This document shows, one piece after another, positions 4,362 to 38,186 of a stretch of 38,898 nt of DNA. This DNA is from Verrucomicrobiota bacterium. Its GTDB lineage: Bacteria > Verrucomicrobiota > Verrucomicrobiia > Chthoniobacterales > UBA10450. How positions within the stretch are numbered: position 1 is the stretch's first letter; each line of letters begins with the position of its first letter. The notes beneath the pieces are model-generated. The model ran no database searches. It was given only the letters and a program-made list of their open reading frames with translations, and was not told where the DNA came from. Location of the stretch: NCBI GenBank assembly GCA_003218305.1, contig QHMY01000051.1, positions 17,965-56,862 on the forward strand. Direction: 5' to 3'. The translations under genes and the position numbers were made by a program.

Positions 4362-4790
4362 CTATGGGATCACGTCCACTGCTGCGCCCGAATTTTTCCG
4401 GCGGCGCAGTTCCATCGCCCAAAGACCCAGGACAGTGAGGACGTCGCTCACCAAATGAGTCCGCTGGACCGCGTTTTCCAAGGCGGGAGTAAGCGTAGGC
4501 TCAAGAAGATCGCGGAGCGGCTTGATCTCCGCAGCAGCCGACGAATCAACCTGCTTGATCGCAGCCAGGGTGGCGTGCCGCTGCCTCGTCGCCGTCATGA
4601 TTGCATCCATGTTCTCGTAGGCGAAGAGACCGAAAAGGAGGGTTACGATCAATGTGGTCACGGCAGCGGGCAATTTCCGCAGCGAGGAAAAGGCGAGCAG
4701 ACCGCCCACGATAACTACGTAGAGCGTCCAATAGGCCTGAAGCGCATTGGAGCGTTCGAAGTAGAGCTGTATCAATTCGTTATATTTCAT
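4362..4790 (-). CDS. small membrane protein of unknown function, last gene of the lipid operon
   Basis: 142 aa with hydrophobic segments; start codon overlaps the stop of the upstream gene by 4 nt (4787-4790). Confidence 0.75.
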   Translation of the reverse strand: MKYNELIQLYFERSNALQAYWTLYVVIVGGLLAFSSLRKLPAAVTTLIVTLLFGLFAYENMDAIMTATRQRHATLAAIKQVDSSAAAEIKPLRDLLEPTLTPALENAVQRTHLVSDVLTVLGLWAMELRRRKNSGAAVDVIP

Positions 4791-6142
4791 AAGCCGCGCC
4801 GATTATGGAGGGGCAATTCACCGAGGCGAGCAGAAAAGACAGGAGCTGCCATTGCCTCCGCGAACTCGGACAGCGCGGAAAGCACTTCGCGTCGCACGAC
4901 CATGGAAGGTCGAACCTGGCGCAACATTTCGACGGCTTGGTCGACGCCCGCGGCCTTGCCGCTCTGAATCAAATAAGCTGCTGCCGCTGCCGCCGTTCGG
5001 GAATAGCCGATCTTGCAATGGATGTAGACGATCCCCTTCCCCAACTCCTCGTCGATGAATGTCGCCATCTCTCGCAACTGTTCGATCGAAGGCGCCGTGA
5101 GATCGAGGATGGGAATGTTGTGATAGACGAGGGCGCGGAACGGCTTCGCCTCGGAAAATTCCGCAGTGAGATCGAGCACCGCCGTCACGCCAAGCTGAAT
5201 TGCTTCTTCCGCTTCATTGGCATCGAGAACACGGCCAATCCAGACTTCCGGCGTGAGCTTGTCCCACGACCGGCATTGACGCTGATAAAAAAGCAACGAG
5301 AGCTGCTGCCCTAACAAGCAGGGAGCGAGAACCAGCCGGGCGCTCCAATGCAATTGTCCATCGGCTTTGCGAAAGATGATCGGGCCCAATCCGAAATAGG
5401 CGCTGGCGACGATTCCCAGCGACATCGCCGGCCAAAGCAGCAGCGCGCCCCAAGGCCAAAGCCAGGTGACGATACCGACGACGATCAACGTGCCGAAGGC
5501 GTAGTGAGAACCGACGCGTCGATTCGCGATAACTGGAAGGTGCGGCTCCGGTTCGCGAATGAAATAGATGCAGGAAACGCCGAGAGCGAAGCCGGCTACG
5601 ACGTCCATCAGGTGATGTTGATAAGTAAGGAGCGTCGAAAGACCGACGAGGACGAACCAGAAATTCGAGGCCGCGCGCAGAATTCCGCGAGTATGCCGGT
5701 GATAGAGTTGAGCCAGAATCGTTCGAAAAGCGATGTGGAGCGATGGAAGGAGGTTGTAGGGCAGGTCCATTCCGCGGAACCAATCGAAAGCGATTCCAAA
5801 CCACCCACTGGCATGCGGGCGCTCAAAGGCGAAACGCAGAGGAAAAAGAAGGAAACAGATTCCGGCCACACCGATGGAGACGACGATGCGTTTGGACAAT
5901 GTGGACAGTTCCCGCGCGTCGCGGCAAAGGAACGGCGCCCCGACAAAGAAGAGGTCGATCGACATGTAGGGCACGATCATGAGTGGCACGAACGGGATAA
6001 GCCGTTCCCATTCGAAGAAAAGGGTGCCGACATCGTGGCGTTGCGCGGTAATCCAGTTGCACCAGCCGTAGACCAGGAGGAAGAGAGCCGAAAGCCCGAC
6101 GGACGCGGCAAGAGCTTTGAGGCGCAACGAGCTGTTCAACAT
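4787..6142 (-). CDS. PAP2-family / dual-specificity protein phosphatase fusion (YnbD-like)
   Basis: N-terminal multi-TM PAP2_3-like region 'LLPSLHIAF' and 'TYQHHLMDVVAGFALG'; C-terminal CX5R 'VYIHCKIGYSRTAAAAAAYL'. Start at an internal Met (MLNSSLRL). Confidence 0.87.
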   Translation of the reverse strand: MLNSSLRLKALAASVGLSALFLLVYGWCNWITAQRHDVGTLFFEWERLIPFVPLMIVPYMSIDLFFVGAPFLCRDARELSTLSKRIVVSIGVAGICFLLFPLRFAFERPHASGWFGIAFDWFRGMDLPYNLLPSLHIAFRTILAQLYHRHTRGILRAASNFWFVLVGLSTLLTYQHHLMDVVAGFALGVSCIYFIREPEPHLPVIANRRVGSHYAFGTLIVVGIVTWLWPWGALLLWPAMSLGIVASAYFGLGPIIFRKADGQLHWSARLVLAPCLLGQQLSLLFYQRQCRSWDKLTPEVWIGRVLDANEAEEAIQLGVTAVLDLTAEFSEAKPFRALVYHNIPILDLTAPSIEQLREMATFIDEELGKGIVYIHCKIGYSRTAAAAAAYLIQSGKAAGVDQAVEMLRQVRPSMVVRREVLSALSEFAEAMAAPVFSARLGELPLHNRRGL

Positions 6143-6180
6143 GCCTGGCTTCTCCAAGATAGAAGCGCTCTCGCCCCTCG

Positions 6181-6251
6181 CGGCTCCGCAGAGCGTCGCC
6201 CTACCAATGCGCGCTCGTCGTCCGTTGGTAGGGCGAGACTCTGTCGAGCCG
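6181..6251. repeat. imperfect inverted repeat, 27-nt arms, between the YnbC-like and YnbD-like genes
   Basis: 6181-6207 'cggctccgcagagcgtcgccctaccaa' vs 6225-6251 'ttggtagggcgagactctgtcgagccg'. Confidence 0.8.
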
Positions 6252-6278
6252 CGCCGCTGCTACAGTGAATCATTATGC

Positions 6279-7994
6279 TCAGCAACGCCGGGCAACCGAG
6301 ACCGTGAAGATGCCCCATTCATCTACTTCCATCGTGACCTTCTCGAATCCTGCCACGCGAACCAGTTCATCCATCTCCGCCGTTGTCCTCCGCCGCATAA
6401 TCCAGGGCTCGCCTTCTCGATTTCGCAGGACGCGCGCGATGAATTCAACCTGCGGATGCCAGGGCTGGTTGGTGTAAATGAGGTGTCCGCCCGGCTCGAT
6501 CGCGTCAGCCAGTCCCCGGAGCGACGTCAGCACCGCATCGTTCGACGGAAATAACTCAAATAACCCTGAGACGATGCCGATCGTCGGACGCGGCTCGACC
6601 GCAGCCAGCGACGCCCGGTCGAAAGCATCGCCGAAAACGGCTGTCACGTTCGTCAAACCCAAGTCCGTGGCCAGCCGGGTGGCAGCGTCGACATTCTCTT
6701 GCTTGTAGTCACGCAGGAGCGCCGTCATCGGAATTTTCGACAATGCCTCCAACGTCTCGAGTAGGTATCGTCCTCCACCCGCCGCGATATCGACGATCCG
6801 CACCGGCCGGCCGGCTGCATGCGTTTCCTCGATCACTTTCCGCAGCAATTTCTCCAGGTTCTTTTTGCGCTGCCGGATACCGCGCCAGCCAATGCTGTTC
6901 AAATAGCCCTGATCAATGAAGCGGCCCAGCCGGGTCGCTCCCTGAGCTTTGTTCTCGTAGACGTAATCGAGGGAGAGCCCGGAATCGAAACCGCTCCGCC
7001 AGCCGAGATCGATGCCTTTGCTCAAGCGTCCGCCTGTTTTCATCCCGACACGGACCACGGCAAACTGCGGACCCCCGCGCAGCTTCAATCGCTCGTATTC
7101 TTCCCAGGTGTAGCCGAATTTATCCGCTTGGAGCAGCGAAGGTGCGGCCCGCTTTTCGACGAAACGTTCCTCAATAAACTCGCGCGTCCGCTCGACGACC
7201 TGCGCCCGCTCTTTCTCGTGAAAAATGGCGTGAAACGCCGCAGGAAAAACGTGCATCCGTTTCACGGATGACGAGAGGCCGTTAAAGAATTCTCGCTGCG
7301 CATCCAGACTGACGACCCAGTCCCGCCCAGCGCTTAGCATGAGGGTCGGCAGATTGATCGCCCCGGCATCCGCCAGCAGACGCGTGCCGGCGTCGTGCAG
7401 ATCGATGAGCACGTTGACCGCGATTTGGCGGAAGATCAGCGGGTCTGCGTTGTAAAGCGCCGCCTGGACCGGGTCGTGCGTGAGCATTTTCGCTTTCACG
7501 TAACTTTTCACAAAGCCGGGCCCGACGAACTTTTGCTTGAGCCGCAGCGACGGGATGGCGAGCGGGACGTAAAGCCGGACCCGGAACGCGGGCGTGGCCA
7601 GAATCATCGCGCGAATCGGCGGCGCGTAGTCATGCACCCACGCCGCGACCGAAACCGCGCCGACGCTGTGAGCCAGGACGATGATGTTCTCCAACTCGAA
7701 GCCGTGATGCTCGGCTATATGGCGCACGAATGCGTCCACATCCTTTACCATCGCTCCAAAGTTTTCTGCGGACCCTCGTTCGCCCGGCGAACGGCCATGC
7801 CCCCGCGCATCCCACGCGAAGACCGCCACGTCGGGCAGGCCCAGCATTTCCACCACCTCCGACCAGCGGCCGGAATGCTCATGCCCCCGATGAAAGAGCA
7901 GCAACGCTTTTTCCTTCGCGGTCGGCGGAACCCACGCGCGATAAAAAAGCTGGGCGCCGTCCCAGCTCGCAAACGTATGTTCGGCCGCGTTCAT
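6279..7994 (-). CDS. bifunctional alpha/beta hydrolase / class I SAM-dependent methyltransferase (YnbC-like)
   Basis: N-terminal 'LLLFHRGHEHSGRW', nucleophile elbow 'VLAHSVGAVS'; C-terminal SAM motif 'VRIVDIAAGGGRYLLETL'. Single uninterrupted ORF; start at internal Met MNAAEHTF. Confidence 0.9.
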   Translation of the reverse strand: MNAAEHTFASWDGAQLFYRAWVPPTAKEKALLLFHRGHEHSGRWSEVVEMLGLPDVAVFAWDARGHGRSPGERGSAENFGAMVKDVDAFVRHIAEHHGFELENIIVLAHSVGAVSVAAWVHDYAPPIRAMILATPAFRVRLYVPLAIPSLRLKQKFVGPGFVKSYVKAKMLTHDPVQAALYNADPLIFRQIAVNVLIDLHDAGTRLLADAGAINLPTLMLSAGRDWVVSLDAQREFFNGLSSSVKRMHVFPAAFHAIFHEKERAQVVERTREFIEERFVEKRAAPSLLQADKFGYTWEEYERLKLRGGPQFAVVRVGMKTGGRLSKGIDLGWRSGFDSGLSLDYVYENKAQGATRLGRFIDQGYLNSIGWRGIRQRKKNLEKLLRKVIEETHAAGRPVRIVDIAAGGGRYLLETLEALSKIPMTALLRDYKQENVDAATRLATDLGLTNVTAVFGDAFDRASLAAVEPRPTIGIVSGLFELFPSNDAVLTSLRGLADAIEPGGHLIYTNQPWHPQVEFIARVLRNREGEPWIMRRRTTAEMDELVRVAGFEKVTMEVDEWGIFTVSVARRC

Positions 7995-8004
7995 TTTCGC
8001 AATT

Positions 8005-8059
8005 GTAGGGCAGGCGCGCCGCCTGCCAATCAAAACGGCAACCGGAGCGGGTGCCCTAC
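8005..8059. repeat. palindromic element 'gtagggca...tgccctac' inside the operon
   Basis: 'gtagggcaggcgcgccgcctgcc..aaaacggcaaccggagcgggtgccctac'; related sequences at about 29800-29868 and 36215-36314. Confidence 0.75.
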
Positions 8060-8066
8060 TGTTTCT

Positions 8067-8795
8067 TTAACCGCATGCGTGCTGTCGCGCCAATTGCTCC
8101 ACGGCGTCGCGTAGTTCAGCAGCGATCAAAGCGCTTGCGCTCTTTTCGGGCGGCACGGCGCCGTAATTGCGCGGGGCGCCAATAATCAGCCGCACTTTCC
8201 GGGGCCGTGGCCAGCGGCTGCCCTTCGGCCAAGCCCGAAAGGCGCCATCCAAATAACAGGGCAACACCGAAACGTCCCGGCCGGCGACGAGGGCGCCGAC
8301 GCCCCCCTTGAATTCCTGAAGTTCACCGGTAGTCGAGCGCGTGCCCTCCGGAAAAATGATCAGGACGTTGCCGGCATTCGCCAGCAATTCGCCACAGATC
8401 GCGAGACTTTGCCGGACATGGGTTTGACGCGCGAACGGCAGCGCATTCACTACCACCGTCGCGATCCAGGTGCGCGGCACGCTCTTGAAAAAATAATCCG
8501 CCGCCGCCGCGGGAAAAGCTCGATGCAACCGGCGCAGCGGCAAACCGGCGAGCAGGCACACCGTGTCGAGGTGACTGGAGTGATTGGCGACGAGGACAAA
8601 GGAACGATTGCTCCGCAAATGCTCTTCCCCGATGATTTCGAAACGGCAGTACGTCTTCAGCAAACCTCGAATGATCAGAGCGACGAGGGAGCGCAAGCCA
8701 TAGACGAGCATGTCCGGTTCTCGAGGAAAATTCCGGAGCCGCTCGACCAGCGTCTGGTCGAGATCGGCCGCCGGGGCGTATTGCCATTTTTTCAT
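8067..8795 (-). CDS. lysophospholipid acyltransferase family protein (PlsC-like)
   Basis: Acyltransferase motifs 'NHSSHLD' (HX4D) and 'FPEGTRS'. Confidence 0.93.
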   Translation of the reverse strand: MKKWQYAPAADLDQTLVERLRNFPREPDMLVYGLRSLVALIIRGLLKTYCRFEIIGEEHLRSNRSFVLVANHSSHLDTVCLLAGLPLRRLHRAFPAAAADYFFKSVPRTWIATVVVNALPFARQTHVRQSLAICGELLANAGNVLIIFPEGTRSTTGELQEFKGGVGALVAGRDVSVLPCYLDGAFRAWPKGSRWPRPRKVRLIIGAPRNYGAVPPEKSASALIAAELRDAVEQLARQHACG

Positions 8796-9745
8796 CGCAA
8801 CTGGTGATAATAACCCGCCATGTGAAGGAAGAGCGGCGCGACATAAATAAGGCTGTCGATCCGATCAAGAATGCCGCCGTGCCCCGGGATTAAAGCTCCC
8901 ATATCCTTCGTCCCGATGTCACGCTTGATCACGCTGATGGAAAGATCGCCCAGTTGTCCGCCTATGCCCACGATCAATCCACTCAGGATCAATTGCCACG
9001 GACCAAATTCAGGAAACGAAAACCGCAGCAGCCAGGGCAGAATCATCGAAACCGCGAACGCACCAAGCGCGCCTTCCCAGGTTTTGTTCGGGCTGATTTC
9101 ACTGCGCAGCCGGTGACGGCCGAAAAGCCGGCCGAAAGTAAACGCCGCCACGTCGCTCAACTCCGTGGCGAAGATTACGTAAAGGAGATAGCCGTAGGCG
9201 TTGACGGCATTCGCGAGAAATCCGAGGTGCCCGAACATCCAGCCGATGTAAACAAAGCCGACGATGGCCAACGACATACGCTGCAATTCACCGCGCGCGC
9301 GGTTGCGCAGAATCGGAACGATCAGAATGAGGGCGATGGCAAAGACCGGCACGGCGACAAAGAATCCGTACCAACCGGAACCCGGTTCCTCGGCCCGCGG
9401 GTGAGGCATCAGCGAAGCCGAGCCGACCGTGATGATCCCGGCGTAAACGGCACCCGTCATCCACCAGTCGCGATACAACCCGGAAGCGCGCGCGAATTCC
9501 TTGAATCCGAAAATTGCGAGAAGCGTAACGCCAATAATGGTGGGAATGCGGCCGGCCAGGATCACCGCCATTCCTATGGGTGCCAGGATGAGCCAGGAGC
9601 GATAGGTGCTCCAGATCGAGCCGAGTTGCTTCTTCAAGCCCCAATGCAGGAGGACGAGAACAAGCCCGCCCGCCGCCAGCGAGCCAAAGATGATGCGCAG
9701 GTACGCGAGAAAAACCGGGTCGTGGAGCGCGTGGTGTGGCGACAT
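8792..9745 (-). CDS. phosphatidate cytidylyltransferase (CdsA/YnbB-like)
   Basis: C-terminal CDS signature 'SVIKRDIGTKDMGALIPGHGGILDRIDSLIY'. Start MSPHHALHD gives a TGATG overlap with the upstream gene; stop overlaps the plsC-like start. Confidence 0.94.
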   Translation of the reverse strand: MSPHHALHDPVFLAYLRIIFGSLAAGGLVLVLLHWGLKKQLGSIWSTYRSWLILAPIGMAVILAGRIPTIIGVTLLAIFGFKEFARASGLYRDWWMTGAVYAGIITVGSASLMPHPRAEEPGSGWYGFFVAVPVFAIALILIVPILRNRARGELQRMSLAIVGFVYIGWMFGHLGFLANAVNAYGYLLYVIFATELSDVAAFTFGRLFGRHRLRSEISPNKTWEGALGAFAVSMILPWLLRFSFPEFGPWQLILSGLIVGIGGQLGDLSISVIKRDIGTKDMGALIPGHGGILDRIDSLIYVAPLFLHMAGYYHQLR

Positions 9746-10410
9746 CAATGAGCGGCGGATTTCGACCGGAGCGCCGCCATTATTCGTTTCAATCGGATCG
9801 TCATCGTCTGGACACAGCCGGCGACGACAATAAGGCAGACCCAATCCAGCACGGTCAAGCGCCCGAATCGAATCGCACTTTCATTCCACCAGAGGCAGGC
9901 CAGCGTGAGCCAGGCCCCGGCATGCAGGATGACCATGCGCCAGGGCTTCGACATGATCCCGCTAAATTCTCGCTGAACGCCGACGGCTTGCCCAAACATT
10001 CCCACGTACGCCGTCAGGAGCGCAAAAATTGCCGCCCAGTAGGCGATGATCGGATTCATCCATCCGCTGTGCGCAACACCGGCAAAAATCAGGACATCCG
10101 AAATGCGATCCGGCAGGTCGTTGAGAATCTCGCCGCGCCAGCTCGCTTTGCCCGACGCAAGCGCGACCATGCCATCGAGCATGTTGCACCACAGCCGGAG
10201 GTAGCAAAACCCTGGGGCAAACAAGAGCAAAATCGGGTGGGCACCCGACTTCCAAAAGCAAACGCCCGCGAGCGCAGCCGCGAAGAGGGAAAGGTAGGAA
10301 ATCGCGTCTGGATGAACACCGAGCCGTAGACACAAGCGGGTCGCACCCTGGGCTGTCCGGCGGAAAACCTCTGCGATCGGACGCCGCGAGGTAGGTTCAT
10401 AGTCGGCCAT
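9745..10410 (-). CDS. CDP-alcohol phosphatidyltransferase family protein (YnbA-like)
   Basis: 'NMLDGMVALASGKASWRGEILNDLPDRISD' matches a variant CDP-AP motif; multi-TM; first gene of the operon. Confidence 0.88.
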   Translation of the reverse strand: MADYEPTSRRPIAEVFRRTAQGATRLCLRLGVHPDAISYLSLFAAALAGVCFWKSGAHPILLLFAPGFCYLRLWCNMLDGMVALASGKASWRGEILNDLPDRISDVLIFAGVAHSGWMNPIIAYWAAIFALLTAYVGMFGQAVGVQREFSGIMSKPWRMVILHAGAWLTLACLWWNESAIRFGRLTVLDWVCLIVVAGCVQTMTIRLKRIMAALRSKSAAH

Positions 10411-10447: not shown

Positions 10448-10783
10448 TTACGGATTTCCCAGCGGGCGGATTTCTCCGGTTACCTCGGAAACGACGGGAT
10501 AACCCTCAAGCGTCCTGGGTATCACACGTTCGGTTTCCGCCGTCTTGCGCGCGAGCATGACTTTCAAACAAGGCGTCTTTCCATCGTCGAGCAGAGCGAC
10601 ATAAACTCCGACGACACCAGGGATAGCGAGAAGTTCTTTATCGTGATCGCGCAAGACGGCGTTGATGTCGCGCTTCGGCAAAGGCGAATTATTCTGCGGC
10701 ATATGTTCCCCGCAACCAGTCGCCAAGGCCACACCCCCCAGGCAACTGAGATGTATCGCCCAATGCAATCGGTCTGGGTGCAT
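10448..10783 (-). CDS. small putative lipoprotein, resembles the N-terminal domain of the adjacent protease
   Basis: Signal/lipobox-like 'GGVALATGCG'; 'IPGVVGVYVALLDDGKTPCLKVML...LEGYPVVSEVTGEIRPL'. Confidence 0.7.
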   Translation of the reverse strand: MHPDRLHWAIHLSCLGGVALATGCGEHMPQNNSPLPKRDINAVLRDHDKELLAIPGVVGVYVALLDDGKTPCLKVMLARKTAETERVIPRTLEGYPVVSEVTGEIRPLGNP

Positions 10784-10868: not shown

Positions 10869-12011
10869 TTACGGAGTGCCGACCATGGTTGCGCCGAGAA
10901 AGCTCAAGACCTGGCCGATCGGATTTGCGATCGCGGTGCTGCTGCTACCCGCGAAGAGCAAGCCCACCGCGCGAGGATTGGTTGCAACATCCTGAACCAT
11001 CAGTGAACCGGAGTCGCCGCTATCAAGGAATCGGCTCCCGTTATTCTTGATTACGATCTGGCCGGTAAATGTCTTCGTAAAAGCGGTGCCGCCGGCGCAT
11101 TCATTCTCATAGGTGATGCTGACCGTTGCGTTCAAGCCTGAGACTGTGCTGTTGGTCAACCCCGTGGTGCGGCCACTTTTTTTCACGGCCTGGTTCAACG
11201 AGGCGGCAATAGTTTGCGACGAGATTGTTCCTATCTCGAGGATGGCTCCGCTGGAGTTTACCATTCCAGGAACAACTTGGGCCACGGCGCAATCGACATT
11301 GCTGCCAGGGAGAGAGTTTTTTTTGACCAGGGTGGCCACGTTTTGCGCTGTCGCGGCATTGCAGTTGACGTCGATCAGGCCTGGCTGAGCCACTGGATCG
11401 CCCGTTTGGGCGACGCGGCTATTGCCACCGGAGACGATATCAGCCTCGAACACGTGGTAATTGCTGAGGATGTGTTGGACGCCGCCAATCGAGACCAGAG
11501 ATCCGAGGGTGCCGCCGCAGCAATAGCCATTGGCGAGATCGTAGCTCCAGCCACCCGAGGTCCCGAGCTGAATGGGCGGTGTCTGTTTCGCTGTATGACT
11601 AACGCCCCCGCCCCCGCCTCCGCCGGGCCGCGCCATGGCGCGGAATTTCTCTGTGAGCTGCACCTGCACTCCAATGCCACGAATGTTGCGCGGAAGATTA
11701 CGCACCGCTTCATCAGCTTTACTGGATTCCTGGTCGACGTAGACCAGCAACGTGGTGTTGCCAGAATCATCGATTCCAACTGCGGTGCCCAGGATTTCCG
11801 GCTGCCGCATCCAATCCGCGGTGACGTCCTGCTGCACGGCCATAACCGCTCGGACGTTTGCGTGGGTGTCATCAAGTACGCCGGCGGGCGGAGCCGCCAA
11901 CGCAGTAAGGGAAACAAATCCGGAGAGGATTCCGGCCGACAGCGCTGCTAGAGCACGGAGGAACTGACGAGGGTTTAACATGCCCGCGATCCTATGACCG
12001 GGAGCAATCAA
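10869..12011 (-). CDS. secreted trypsin-like serine protease
   Basis: N-terminal signal region; 'ILSNYHVF' (His), 'SNVDCAVAQV' (Asp), 'LDSGDSGSLMVQD' (Ser). Confidence 0.82.
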   Translation of the reverse strand: MIAPGHRIAGMLNPRQFLRALAALSAGILSGFVSLTALAAPPAGVLDDTHANVRAVMAVQQDVTADWMRQPEILGTAVGIDDSGNTTLLVYVDQESSKADEAVRNLPRNIRGIGVQVQLTEKFRAMARPGGGGGGGVSHTAKQTPPIQLGTSGGWSYDLANGYCCGGTLGSLVSIGGVQHILSNYHVFEADIVSGGNSRVAQTGDPVAQPGLIDVNCNAATAQNVATLVKKNSLPGSNVDCAVAQVVPGMVNSSGAILEIGTISSQTIAASLNQAVKKSGRTTGLTNSTVSGLNATVSITYENECAGGTAFTKTFTGQIVIKNNGSRFLDSGDSGSLMVQDVATNPRAVGLLFAGSSSTAIANPIGQVLSFLGATMVGTP

Positions 12012-29791: not shown

Positions 29792-29799
29792 TTGAATTT

Positions 29800-29868
29800 G
29801 CAACCGGTGCGGTTGCCCTACAGCTCAAGCGCGAACTCGAAATTGCAGGGCAGGCGCCCCGCCTGCCG
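29800..29868. repeat. palindromic pair 'gcaaccggtgcggttgccctac ... gcagggcaggcgccccgcctgcc'
   Basis: Same two hairpin types as at 8005-8059 (opposite order) and 36215-36314. Confidence 0.7.
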
Positions 29869-36145: not shown

Positions 36146-36214
36146 ATCCAACGTCCCTCCGGGACAGGCGCGCAATTTCATCGCCCGGACTAACCTTTCC
36201 GTCGTTTCGATTTT

Positions 36215-36314
36215 GGCAACCGGTGCGGTTGCCCTGCAAACCGGCTGCCTGGTCCAAACGCCTCGACATAGCGAGGCGGCTACAGCTGTCGTAGGGCAGG
36301 CGCATCGCCTGCCC
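36215..36314. repeat. palindromic element family 'ggcaaccggtgcggttgccctg ... gtagggcaggcgcatcgcctgccc'
   Basis: Shares both hairpin types with 8005-8059 and 29800-29868. Confidence 0.7.
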
Positions 36315-36386: not shown

Positions 36387-38186
36387 GTGAAAAGCGTCCT
36401 CTTCGTTTGTACGGGAAATATCTGCCGGAGCCCAATGGCGGAAGGGCTTTTCCGCCGTCTTTTGGGCAATCGGAAGGATATCGAGGTCGCCTCCGCCGGG
36501 GTCCACGCCGTGCGCGGCCAGCCTCCGAGCCTGCATGCCATCAACGTTTGCCAACAAGAGGGTGTGGATATTAGCGGACTGCGCAGCCAGCCGCTCACCG
36601 CGACGCTGGTCGATCACGCCACCCATATCTTCGCGATGACGGCCAGCCACCTCGACACGATCCACATGCTCTTCCCTCACGGCGCGGAAAAGGCGTATCT
36701 CCTCCGGGAATTTGAGGAGCCGGGCATGACGGTCTGGCGCGATGTTCCGGACCCGATCGGTTGCAGCCGCGATGTTTACAGCGTTTGCGCCGCCACCATT
36801 AAAAACGCTTTACCGACCGTGCTCGCGTTCGTAGAACAAAGCGAGTTCGCGGCGCCGGCCAAATTACGCGCCGGCGGCACTTCATCCTACATCATGGCAG
36901 ACCAGCCACCCAACATCCCTGCTCCTCCACCCGTTCCAGCCCCGTCAGCCGGCGGAGGGCTGCGCAAAGTCGATCCTGAAATTTTCGAGGCAGTCCAGGC
37001 GGAAGAAAAACGCCAGCGCGAGAACATCGAGCTGATCGCATCCGAAAATTTCACCAGCCGAGCGGTGATGGAAGCGCAGGGCAGCGTCCTGACCAACAAA
37101 TACGCTGAAGGTTATCCGGGGAAACGCTGGTATGGCGGTTGCGAAAATGTGGACACGGTCGAGCAACTGGCCATCGATCGCGCGAAGCAGCTTTTCAGTT
37201 GCGAACACGTGAACGTCCAGCCGCACAGCGGCGCGCAGGCGAACATGGCCGTTTACTTCTCCGTGCTAAAGCCCGGCGACAAAATTCTCGCCATGAACCT
37301 CGCTCACGGCGGCCATCTCACCCATGGCCATCCGGCGAATTTCTCCGGCAAATTCTATCAGGTCTCACAGTACGGTGTCAGCGCGGACACCGAGCAGATC
37401 GATTACGACGCTTTGCAAAAACAGGCCGAGGAAGTTCGCCCGGCCATGATTACTGCCGGCGCCTCCGCTTATCCGCGCATCATCGATTTCCCACGCCTGC
37501 GCCAGATCGCCGATTCCGTCGGCGCGCTCTTGTTTATCGACATGGCGCACATCTCCGGGCTCGTAGCCGGCGGCCAGCATCCGACGCCGATCCCGCACGC
37601 ACAGTTCGTCACCACCACCACGCACAAGAGCCTTCGCGGACCACGCGGCGGCATCGTGATGTGCACCGCCGAATATGCCAAGGCGATCGATGGCACTGTG
37701 TTCCCGGGGGTTCAGGGCGGACCGCTCATGCACGTCATCGCGGCGAAGGCCGTCTGCTTTCACGAAGCGCTCCAGCCTCCATTTCGCGATTACCAGCGAC
37801 AGGTCGTGGTGAACGCCAGAGCGCTCGCCGCCGGGTTGACGAAGCATGGTTACCGCATCGTCTCGGGCGGAACCGATAACCACCTCATGCTGGTCGATCT
37901 CCGGCCAAAGGACATCAACGGAAAGGTAGCGCAGGAAGTCCTGGATCGCGCCGGCATCACCGTGAACAAGAACGGCATCCCGTTCGACACCTACCCCATT
38001 TTCAAGCCCGGCGGCATCCGCATCGGGACACCCGCCGTCACTACTCGCGGGATGAAAGAAGAGGAAATGCTCGAGATCGCCGATCTCATCAACGACGCCC
38101 TCACCCACCGTGACGATGCTGCCGATCTCGAAAAGATCCGCGGTAAAGTTCGCGACCTCACGAGCCGCTTCCCACTTCCCTCATAA
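36387..38186 (+). CDS. glyA: fusion: low-molecular-weight protein-tyrosine/arginine phosphatase (N-term) with serine hydroxymethyltransferase (C-term)
   Basis: One uninterrupted 599-aa ORF. N-term '[22 protein letters not shown]' and '[13 protein letters not shown]'; Pro-rich linker; SHMT '[42 protein letters not shown]', PLP-Lys '[14 protein letters not shown]'. Confidence 0.93.

Follow-up and report, generated by a model that had tools for sequence, protein, structure and literature searches.

Lipid metabolism in Escherichia coli K-12 is often treated as complete, yet its ynbABCD genes are an old orphan operon, and no papers on the full operon or on PF12147 were found in the open literature. 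E. coli YnbB makes CDP-diacylglycerol (CDP-DAG) in vitro, cannot replace CdsA and can support the glycolipid MPIase (PMC6362211, PMC7018664), and YnbD replaces neither phosphatidylglycerophosphate (PGP) nor C55-PP phosphatases (PMC7413402). A related precedent comes from Bacteroides, where a phosphatidylinositol-phosphate (PIP) synthase is followed by a phosphatase and an AUR1-like transferase (PMC9246714). Here we describe a six-gene operon (W1–W6) of the ynbABCD type in DNA from a Verrucomicrobiota bacterium (GenBank assembly GCA_003218305.1, contig QHMY01000051.1, positions 17,965–56,862; 38,898 nucleotides, hereafter the window). On balance, the operon seems to encode a dedicated, low-flux phospholipid assembly line beside the housekeeping pathway, for which we infer the reactions and their order from homology, conserved catalytic residues, the predicted fold of W1, gene linkage and co-occurrence. 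The new element, as judged from alignments and a predicted structure, is asparagine at two metal positions across the YnbA family, whose closest resemblance appears to be to PIP synthases.

Relationship to E. coli ynbABCD

The gene order ynbA-ynbB-ynbC-ynbD, given in the original prediction for this DNA, was confirmed in strain MG1655. BLASTP and phmmer pair W1 with YnbA (25% identity over 131 aa, E 7e-11), W2 with YnbB (44.5% identity in the catalytic half; 95 bits for the whole length), W4 with YnbC (49% identity over 582 aa, end to end) and W5 with YnbD (33% identity over 412 aa, end to end, E 2e-65); neither program gave W3 or W6 a partner within E. coli ynbABCD. The four paired genes keep their E. 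coli relative order, with plsC placed between the YnbB-type and YnbC-type genes, and both gene fusions, hydrolase::Methyltransf_20 and PAP2::DSP (dual-specificity phosphatase), are present here (Pfam) and in E. coli. The alignments to YnbA–YnbD therefore bear out the predicted ynbABCD-like operon with the same classes, order and two fusions, and Pfam agrees with the predicted domain classes in every case except W1. The E. coli operon, in contrast, contains neither plsC nor the terminal small membrane protein.

An asparagine-substituted metal site in the YnbA family

Standard class I CDP-alcohol phosphotransferases carry the signature D1xxD2GxxAR...GxxxD3xxxD4, in which a pair of metal ions is bound by the four aspartates (PMC6506517). 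W1 (9745–10410, minus strand; 221 aa, ATG at 10410) instead contains N76xxD79GxxA...G93xxxN97DxxD101xxxD105, together with R102, K155, R158 and R206. Every YnbA-family sequence that covers the sites, comprising about 78 distinct proteins and then 24 of 24 more, has asparagine in place of D1 and D3, and the AR of the signature is AL in W1. An acidic residue invariably follows the second asparagine, and D2, D4, a further aspartate four residues on, G1, G2, K155, R158 and R206 are invariant. E. coli YnbA has valine after D4, where W1 has arginine. Judged on these residues, the YnbA family appears to be a variant, rather than a standard member, of the class I enzymes, and W1 N76, N97 and the acidic residue 98 (N/N/E in YnbA) provide a residue-level handle on the head-group enzyme.

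The AlphaFold model of W1 (pLDDT 92.8) adopts the class I CDP-alcohol phosphotransferase fold, with PIP synthases as the top structural matches (TM 0.71 to PIPS). A profile of the YnbA family matches Mycobacterium tuberculosis PgsA1 with E 9e-20, PgsA with 0.0045 and PSS with 0.007. W1 itself falls below the Pfam CDP-OH_P_transf model, which 36 of 40 family members match at E ≤ 0.1, and misses the NCBIfam cut-offs for PIP synthase (47 bits versus 170) and for the archaeal type (79 versus 180). The original assignment as a CDP-alcohol transferase thus stands on fold and homology, although the asparagines at two metal-ligand aspartate positions had gone unnoticed. The genome encodes five other CDP-alcohol transferases. 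D1 and D3 are retained in the three of these that fit a regular-expression check; the remaining two were inspected by eye only. A tree separates the YnbA family from eight standard enzymes by a branch with a support of only 69, and a single origin of the family is likely.

Comparison with mycobacterial PIPS (PgsA1; PDB entries 6h53, 6h59 and 6wmv) shows a common fold and three common arginines, R94, R155 and R195. The PIPS metal aspartates D68 and D89 are replaced by asparagine in the YnbA family, and PIPS K135 and R137 are not conserved in it. In PIPS, R155 and R195 bind the inositol phosphate of the acceptor (PMC4634129); they correspond to W1 R158 and R206, both invariant in the family, and a phosphorylated alcohol is therefore our best guess for the W1 acceptor.

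That alcohol phosphate could be inositol-1-phosphate, from which the DSP domain of W5 would make phosphatidylinositol and on which its PAP2 domain would act like AUR1/BT_1522. This was attractive at first, since PIP synthases are the nearest solved relatives of W1, the genome encodes an inositol-phosphate synthase (MIPS), and W1 R102 is equivalent to PIPS R94, described as conserved in inositol-phosphate-using enzymes (PMC6506517). Among 45 operon genomes, MIPS accompanies R102-type enzymes in 11 of 16 cases versus 2 of 29 for the others. However, R102 occurs in only one of the two family clades, a deep one, so that the association with MIPS amounts to a single evolutionary event (one independent pair); MIPS is present in 57% of Planctomycetota anyway and in just 2 of the 20 Verrucomicrobiota genomes whose YnbA is of the R102 type. 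In addition, the synthase search gave no match in E. coli, the two metal aspartates, K135 and R137 of PIPS are not retained, and two CDP-alcohol transferases and a HAD gene on another contig of the genome (C91) could use the inositol instead. With these tree-aware and phylum-wide tests, inositol is disfavoured as a general acceptor, and an inositol-lipid pathway is improbable.

The C91 genes (L121 898–2127 and L122 351–1941) include a GNAT-like gene besides the two transferases and the HAD-type gene, in a tight grouping reminiscent of the alternative inositol-lipid cluster in Bacteroides vulgatus (PMC9246714). The MIPS gene (L003 769–2010) has no obvious lipid genes beside it and is followed by a response regulator.

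More tentatively, the YnbA family may represent a separate catalytic class with an Asn/Asp metal site, making a chemically new bacterial phospholipid, with a new head group or a non-standard backbone, from its own PlsC/CdsA supply. If true, this class and its lipid would be conserved in organisms as distant as soil Verrucomicrobiota, Pseudomonas and E. coli K-12.

Distribution and modular organization

A scan with a YnbC profile yielded at least 561 relatives, from which 80 loci with flanks were kept and 10 were added from Verrucomicrobiota genomes. These loci span Verrucomicrobiota, Planctomycetota, Acidobacteriota, Myxococcota/Deltaproteobacteria and Alpha-, Beta- and Gammaproteobacteria, and this neighbourhood survey, proposed with the original prediction, finds the same gene set recurring across many phyla far beyond chance. 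In the 61 loci where ynbC is flanked by 6 kb or more on each side, the gene is accompanied by ynbA (53), ynbB (52), ynbD (54) and plsC (50). PlsC had been predicted to be a lineage-specific addition; this is refuted, as plsC is present in 50 of the 52 well-flanked loci having both ynbA and ynbB, across several phyla, and is absent from just two of them, in a Verrucomicrobiota genome (L032) and in Gilliamella (L110). Therefore plsC is part of the common form and is missing from E. coli, whose ynbABCD operon is a reduced version of a widespread unit. Gene order is variable, with A-B-P-C-D, A-C-D-S-P-B (Pseudomonas; P, plsC) and others.

The slot after ynbD is usually occupied in proteobacteria by a membrane protein of about 150 aa, S (36 of 61 loci), and in Chthoniobacterales-like loci by W6 (4362–4790, minus strand; 142 aa, ATG at 4790), which has two predicted transmembrane segments. 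W6 was found in six of the 61 loci, almost exclusively of this kind, and the terminal membrane protein is indeed lineage-specific, as predicted. Homology of W6 to S was rejected (hhalign probability 0.2%), as was its assignment to Pfam DUF2177 (18.5 bits, below the cut-off).

Among a sample of 289 Verrucomicrobiota genomes, 11 encode full-length YnbC, and a YnbA-type gene is present in all 11 versus 18 of the 278 others (Fisher p 1.4e-12, kinship uncorrected). In five of the 11 the ynbC-ynbD pair lies on a separate stretch from ynbA, and YnbA-type genes without ynbC usually belong to a compact ynbA-plsC-ynbB trio (about 15 Verrucomicrobiota loci). The unit is modular, with a W1-W3-W2 core and a W4-W5 accessory module. 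In an Opitutaceae metagenome-assembled genome (L064), YnbC and YnbD group on the Verrucomicrobiota side and YnbA on the proteobacterial side, a pattern suggestive of head-group enzyme exchange within the gene set. The comparison thereby names the gene that the E. coli unit misses and divides the unit into two parts, and the function of an orphan operon becomes directly testable in laboratory strains.

Individual loci carry further genes. A sulfotransferase gene (Sulfotransfer_3; L029 7366–8475) lies between the ynbD-type and ynbC-type genes, a small VTT/DedA-like membrane protein is encoded beside the ynbA-plsC-ynbB trio (L146 6706–12133 and L137 4726–7449; weak Pfam match in L137 only), and a gene resembling monogalactosyldiacylglycerol (MGDG) synthase glycosyltransferases by eye directly follows a ynbD-type gene (L027 5610–6881).

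Putative supply and finishing enzymes

The catalytic residues of W2–W5 are conserved almost without exception across 70–91 homologues. W2 (8792–9745, minus strand; 317 aa, ATG at 9745) is a CdsA/YnbB-type CDP-DAG synthase paralogue. The PlsC-family acyltransferase W3 (8067–8795, minus strand; 242 aa, ATG at 8795) contains the motifs NHSSHLD and EGTR, and its best NCBIfam match, far below the cut-off, is the acyltransferase domain of acyl-ACP (acyl carrier protein)–phospholipid O-acyltransferase.

W4 (6279–7994, minus strand; ATG at 7994) is composed of a monoacylglycerol-lipase-like hydrolase (S110, D225, H255) fused to Methyltransf_20 (VDIAAGGGR), and across 91 sequences its complete serine-hydrolase triad and its S-adenosylmethionine-binding motif vary little or not at all. 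The match of its hydrolase half to monoacylglycerol lipases bears on a different role for the operon, in lipid remodelling or the supply of an MPIase-type glycolipid, where YnbB would feed GlcNAc-PP-diacylglycerol, YnbC would deacylate, PlsC would reacylate and YnbA would be inactive as a transferase. Such a role would accord with the rise in MPIase on YnbB overproduction in E. coli (PMC6362211), with the loss of two canonical metal aspartates from YnbA, and with an AAS-type acyl-ACP ligase/acyltransferase gene that adjoins ynbC-ynbD in three genomes with a lone ynbA. It is nonetheless improbable: YnbA is the most regular partner of ynbC in the Verrucomicrobiota genomes, it keeps D2, D4, G1, G2, K155, R158 and R206 in all cases, unlike an enzyme in decay, and the effect of a ynbB deletion on MPIase is marginal (PMC6362211).

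W5 (4787–6157, minus strand; TTG at 6157) has a two-domain architecture, with a PAP2 membrane domain (PSLH, HHxxD) fused to a DSP domain (C381-x5-R387, D352); its homologues keep PSLH, HHxxD and the CX5R loop. The structure model is confident, and the DSP half has the CX5R site, general-acid aspartate and fold of the DSP lipid phosphatases and matches DSP enzymes, with PTPMT1 among the better matches. PTPMT1, unlike W5, is not fused to a PAP2 membrane domain. The PAP2 half lies at threshold (PAP2_3, 27.9 bits versus a cut-off of 27; PAP2, 26.6 versus 27.2) and has only weak PAP2 phosphatase matches in the PDB; among the matches listed by Foldseek, the DSP domain dominated and no fold partner for the PAP2 half emerged. 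This half may have an AUR1-like transfer role. A segment comprising the last helices and the DSP domain also matches PRK12361.

The likeness to PTPMT1 raises a second candidate acceptor, glycerol-3-phosphate, from which W1 would make PGP for dephosphorylation by W5, as PTPMT1 does, in a redundant, acyl-selective phosphatidylglycerol (PG) branch. Glycerol-3-phosphate is universal and fits the wide distribution, and PlsC and CdsA would supply the precursor. Yet the YnbA profile is far from PgsA compared with PIPS, plain PG synthesis has no use for a hydrolase-methyltransferase, and YnbD fails to complement E. coli PGP-phosphatase mutants (PMC7413402), which expression or specificity could explain. 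A PG branch is unlikely, if a little less so than the inositol and MPIase schemes.

A proposed phospholipid assembly line

In the favoured assembly line, W3 would make phosphatidic acid or a close analogue, which W2 would activate to CDP-DAG. At its asparagine-substituted metal site, W1 would then move the phosphatidyl group onto X-P, a phosphorylated alcohol, giving phosphatidyl-X-phosphate, and the DSP domain of W5 would strip the terminal phosphate to leave phosphatidyl-X. The W5 PAP2 domain and the W4 hydrolase/methyltransferase would subsequently transfer or hydrolyse, deacylate and methylate the lipid. This order would be the simplest scheme using every conserved active site. The route from phosphatidic acid through CDP-DAG to a head-group lipid in the original prediction is accordingly plausible from the gene classes, with its chemistry and product both putative.

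The operon has in common with the Bacteroides thetaiotaomicron inositol lipid cluster BT_1522–BT_1526 a CDP-alcohol transferase, a predicted counterpart of its lipid phosphatase and a candidate counterpart of its AUR1-like PAP2-fold protein (PMC9246714), and W5 would join phosphatase and PAP2-fold functions that the cluster keeps as separate proteins. In contrast to that cluster, the operon contains no MIPS, has a DSP instead of a PgpA-type phosphatase, and adds CdsA, PlsC and the hydrolase::methyltransferase.

The assembly line is favoured by the presence in the same genome of a second, housekeeping cdsA, adjoining dxr on another contig, and of the other CDP-alcohol transferases. Several points weigh against it. 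With its asparagine substitutions, W1 might have a changed transferase activity or none. The core W1-W3-W2 occurs in many genomes that have no phosphatase W5 and can thus do without the DSP step. E. coli ynbB and ynbD deletions grow normally (PMC6362211, PMC7413402). Finally, gene order and a tree of moderate support (87) are the grounds for the orthology of W2 to YnbB, because pairwise scores, taken against chosen paralogues, tie (98 bits against YnbB and 98 against the housekeeping CdsA of this genome). The complementation results for YnbB and YnbD fit a product other than bulk phospholipid.

Gene junctions, repeats and neighbouring features

The six open reading frames (ORFs) span 10410–4362 on the minus strand, and a check of coordinates, strand and junctions upheld the predicted co-directional genes and their start/stop overlaps. 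Three of the five gene boundaries overlap, with TGATG at W1/W2 (9747–9743, minus strand) and ATGA at W2/W3 (8795–8792, minus strand) and W5/W6 (4790–4787, minus strand). Both junctions without overlap, W3/W4 (72 nt) and W4/W5 (121 nt), hold dispersed repeats. The former contains copies of the D4/D5 repeat families, and the latter a 29-nt inverted repeat (6179–6253) forming a strong hairpin (−64.6 kcal/mol, z −6.2). The hairpin is a repeat insertion and may attenuate the message before the ynbD-type gene. The same junctions in relatives are mostly overlapping or short, unlike the repeat-bearing 8005–8060 and 6179–6253, and the repeat type at 8005–8060 recurs in the window at 29797–29867 and 36213–36313.

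Upstream of the operon, the same strand encodes a small protein of unknown family (10448–10783) and a protein that matches the C-terminal domain of rice Nal1 (10869–12011). Elsewhere in the window, a 127-nt direct repeat is present in two copies, 82% identical and 146 nt apart (1803–2075), and an ORF at 36387–38186 reads, by eye, as a fusion of a low-molecular-weight protein tyrosine phosphatase with serine hydroxymethyltransferase.

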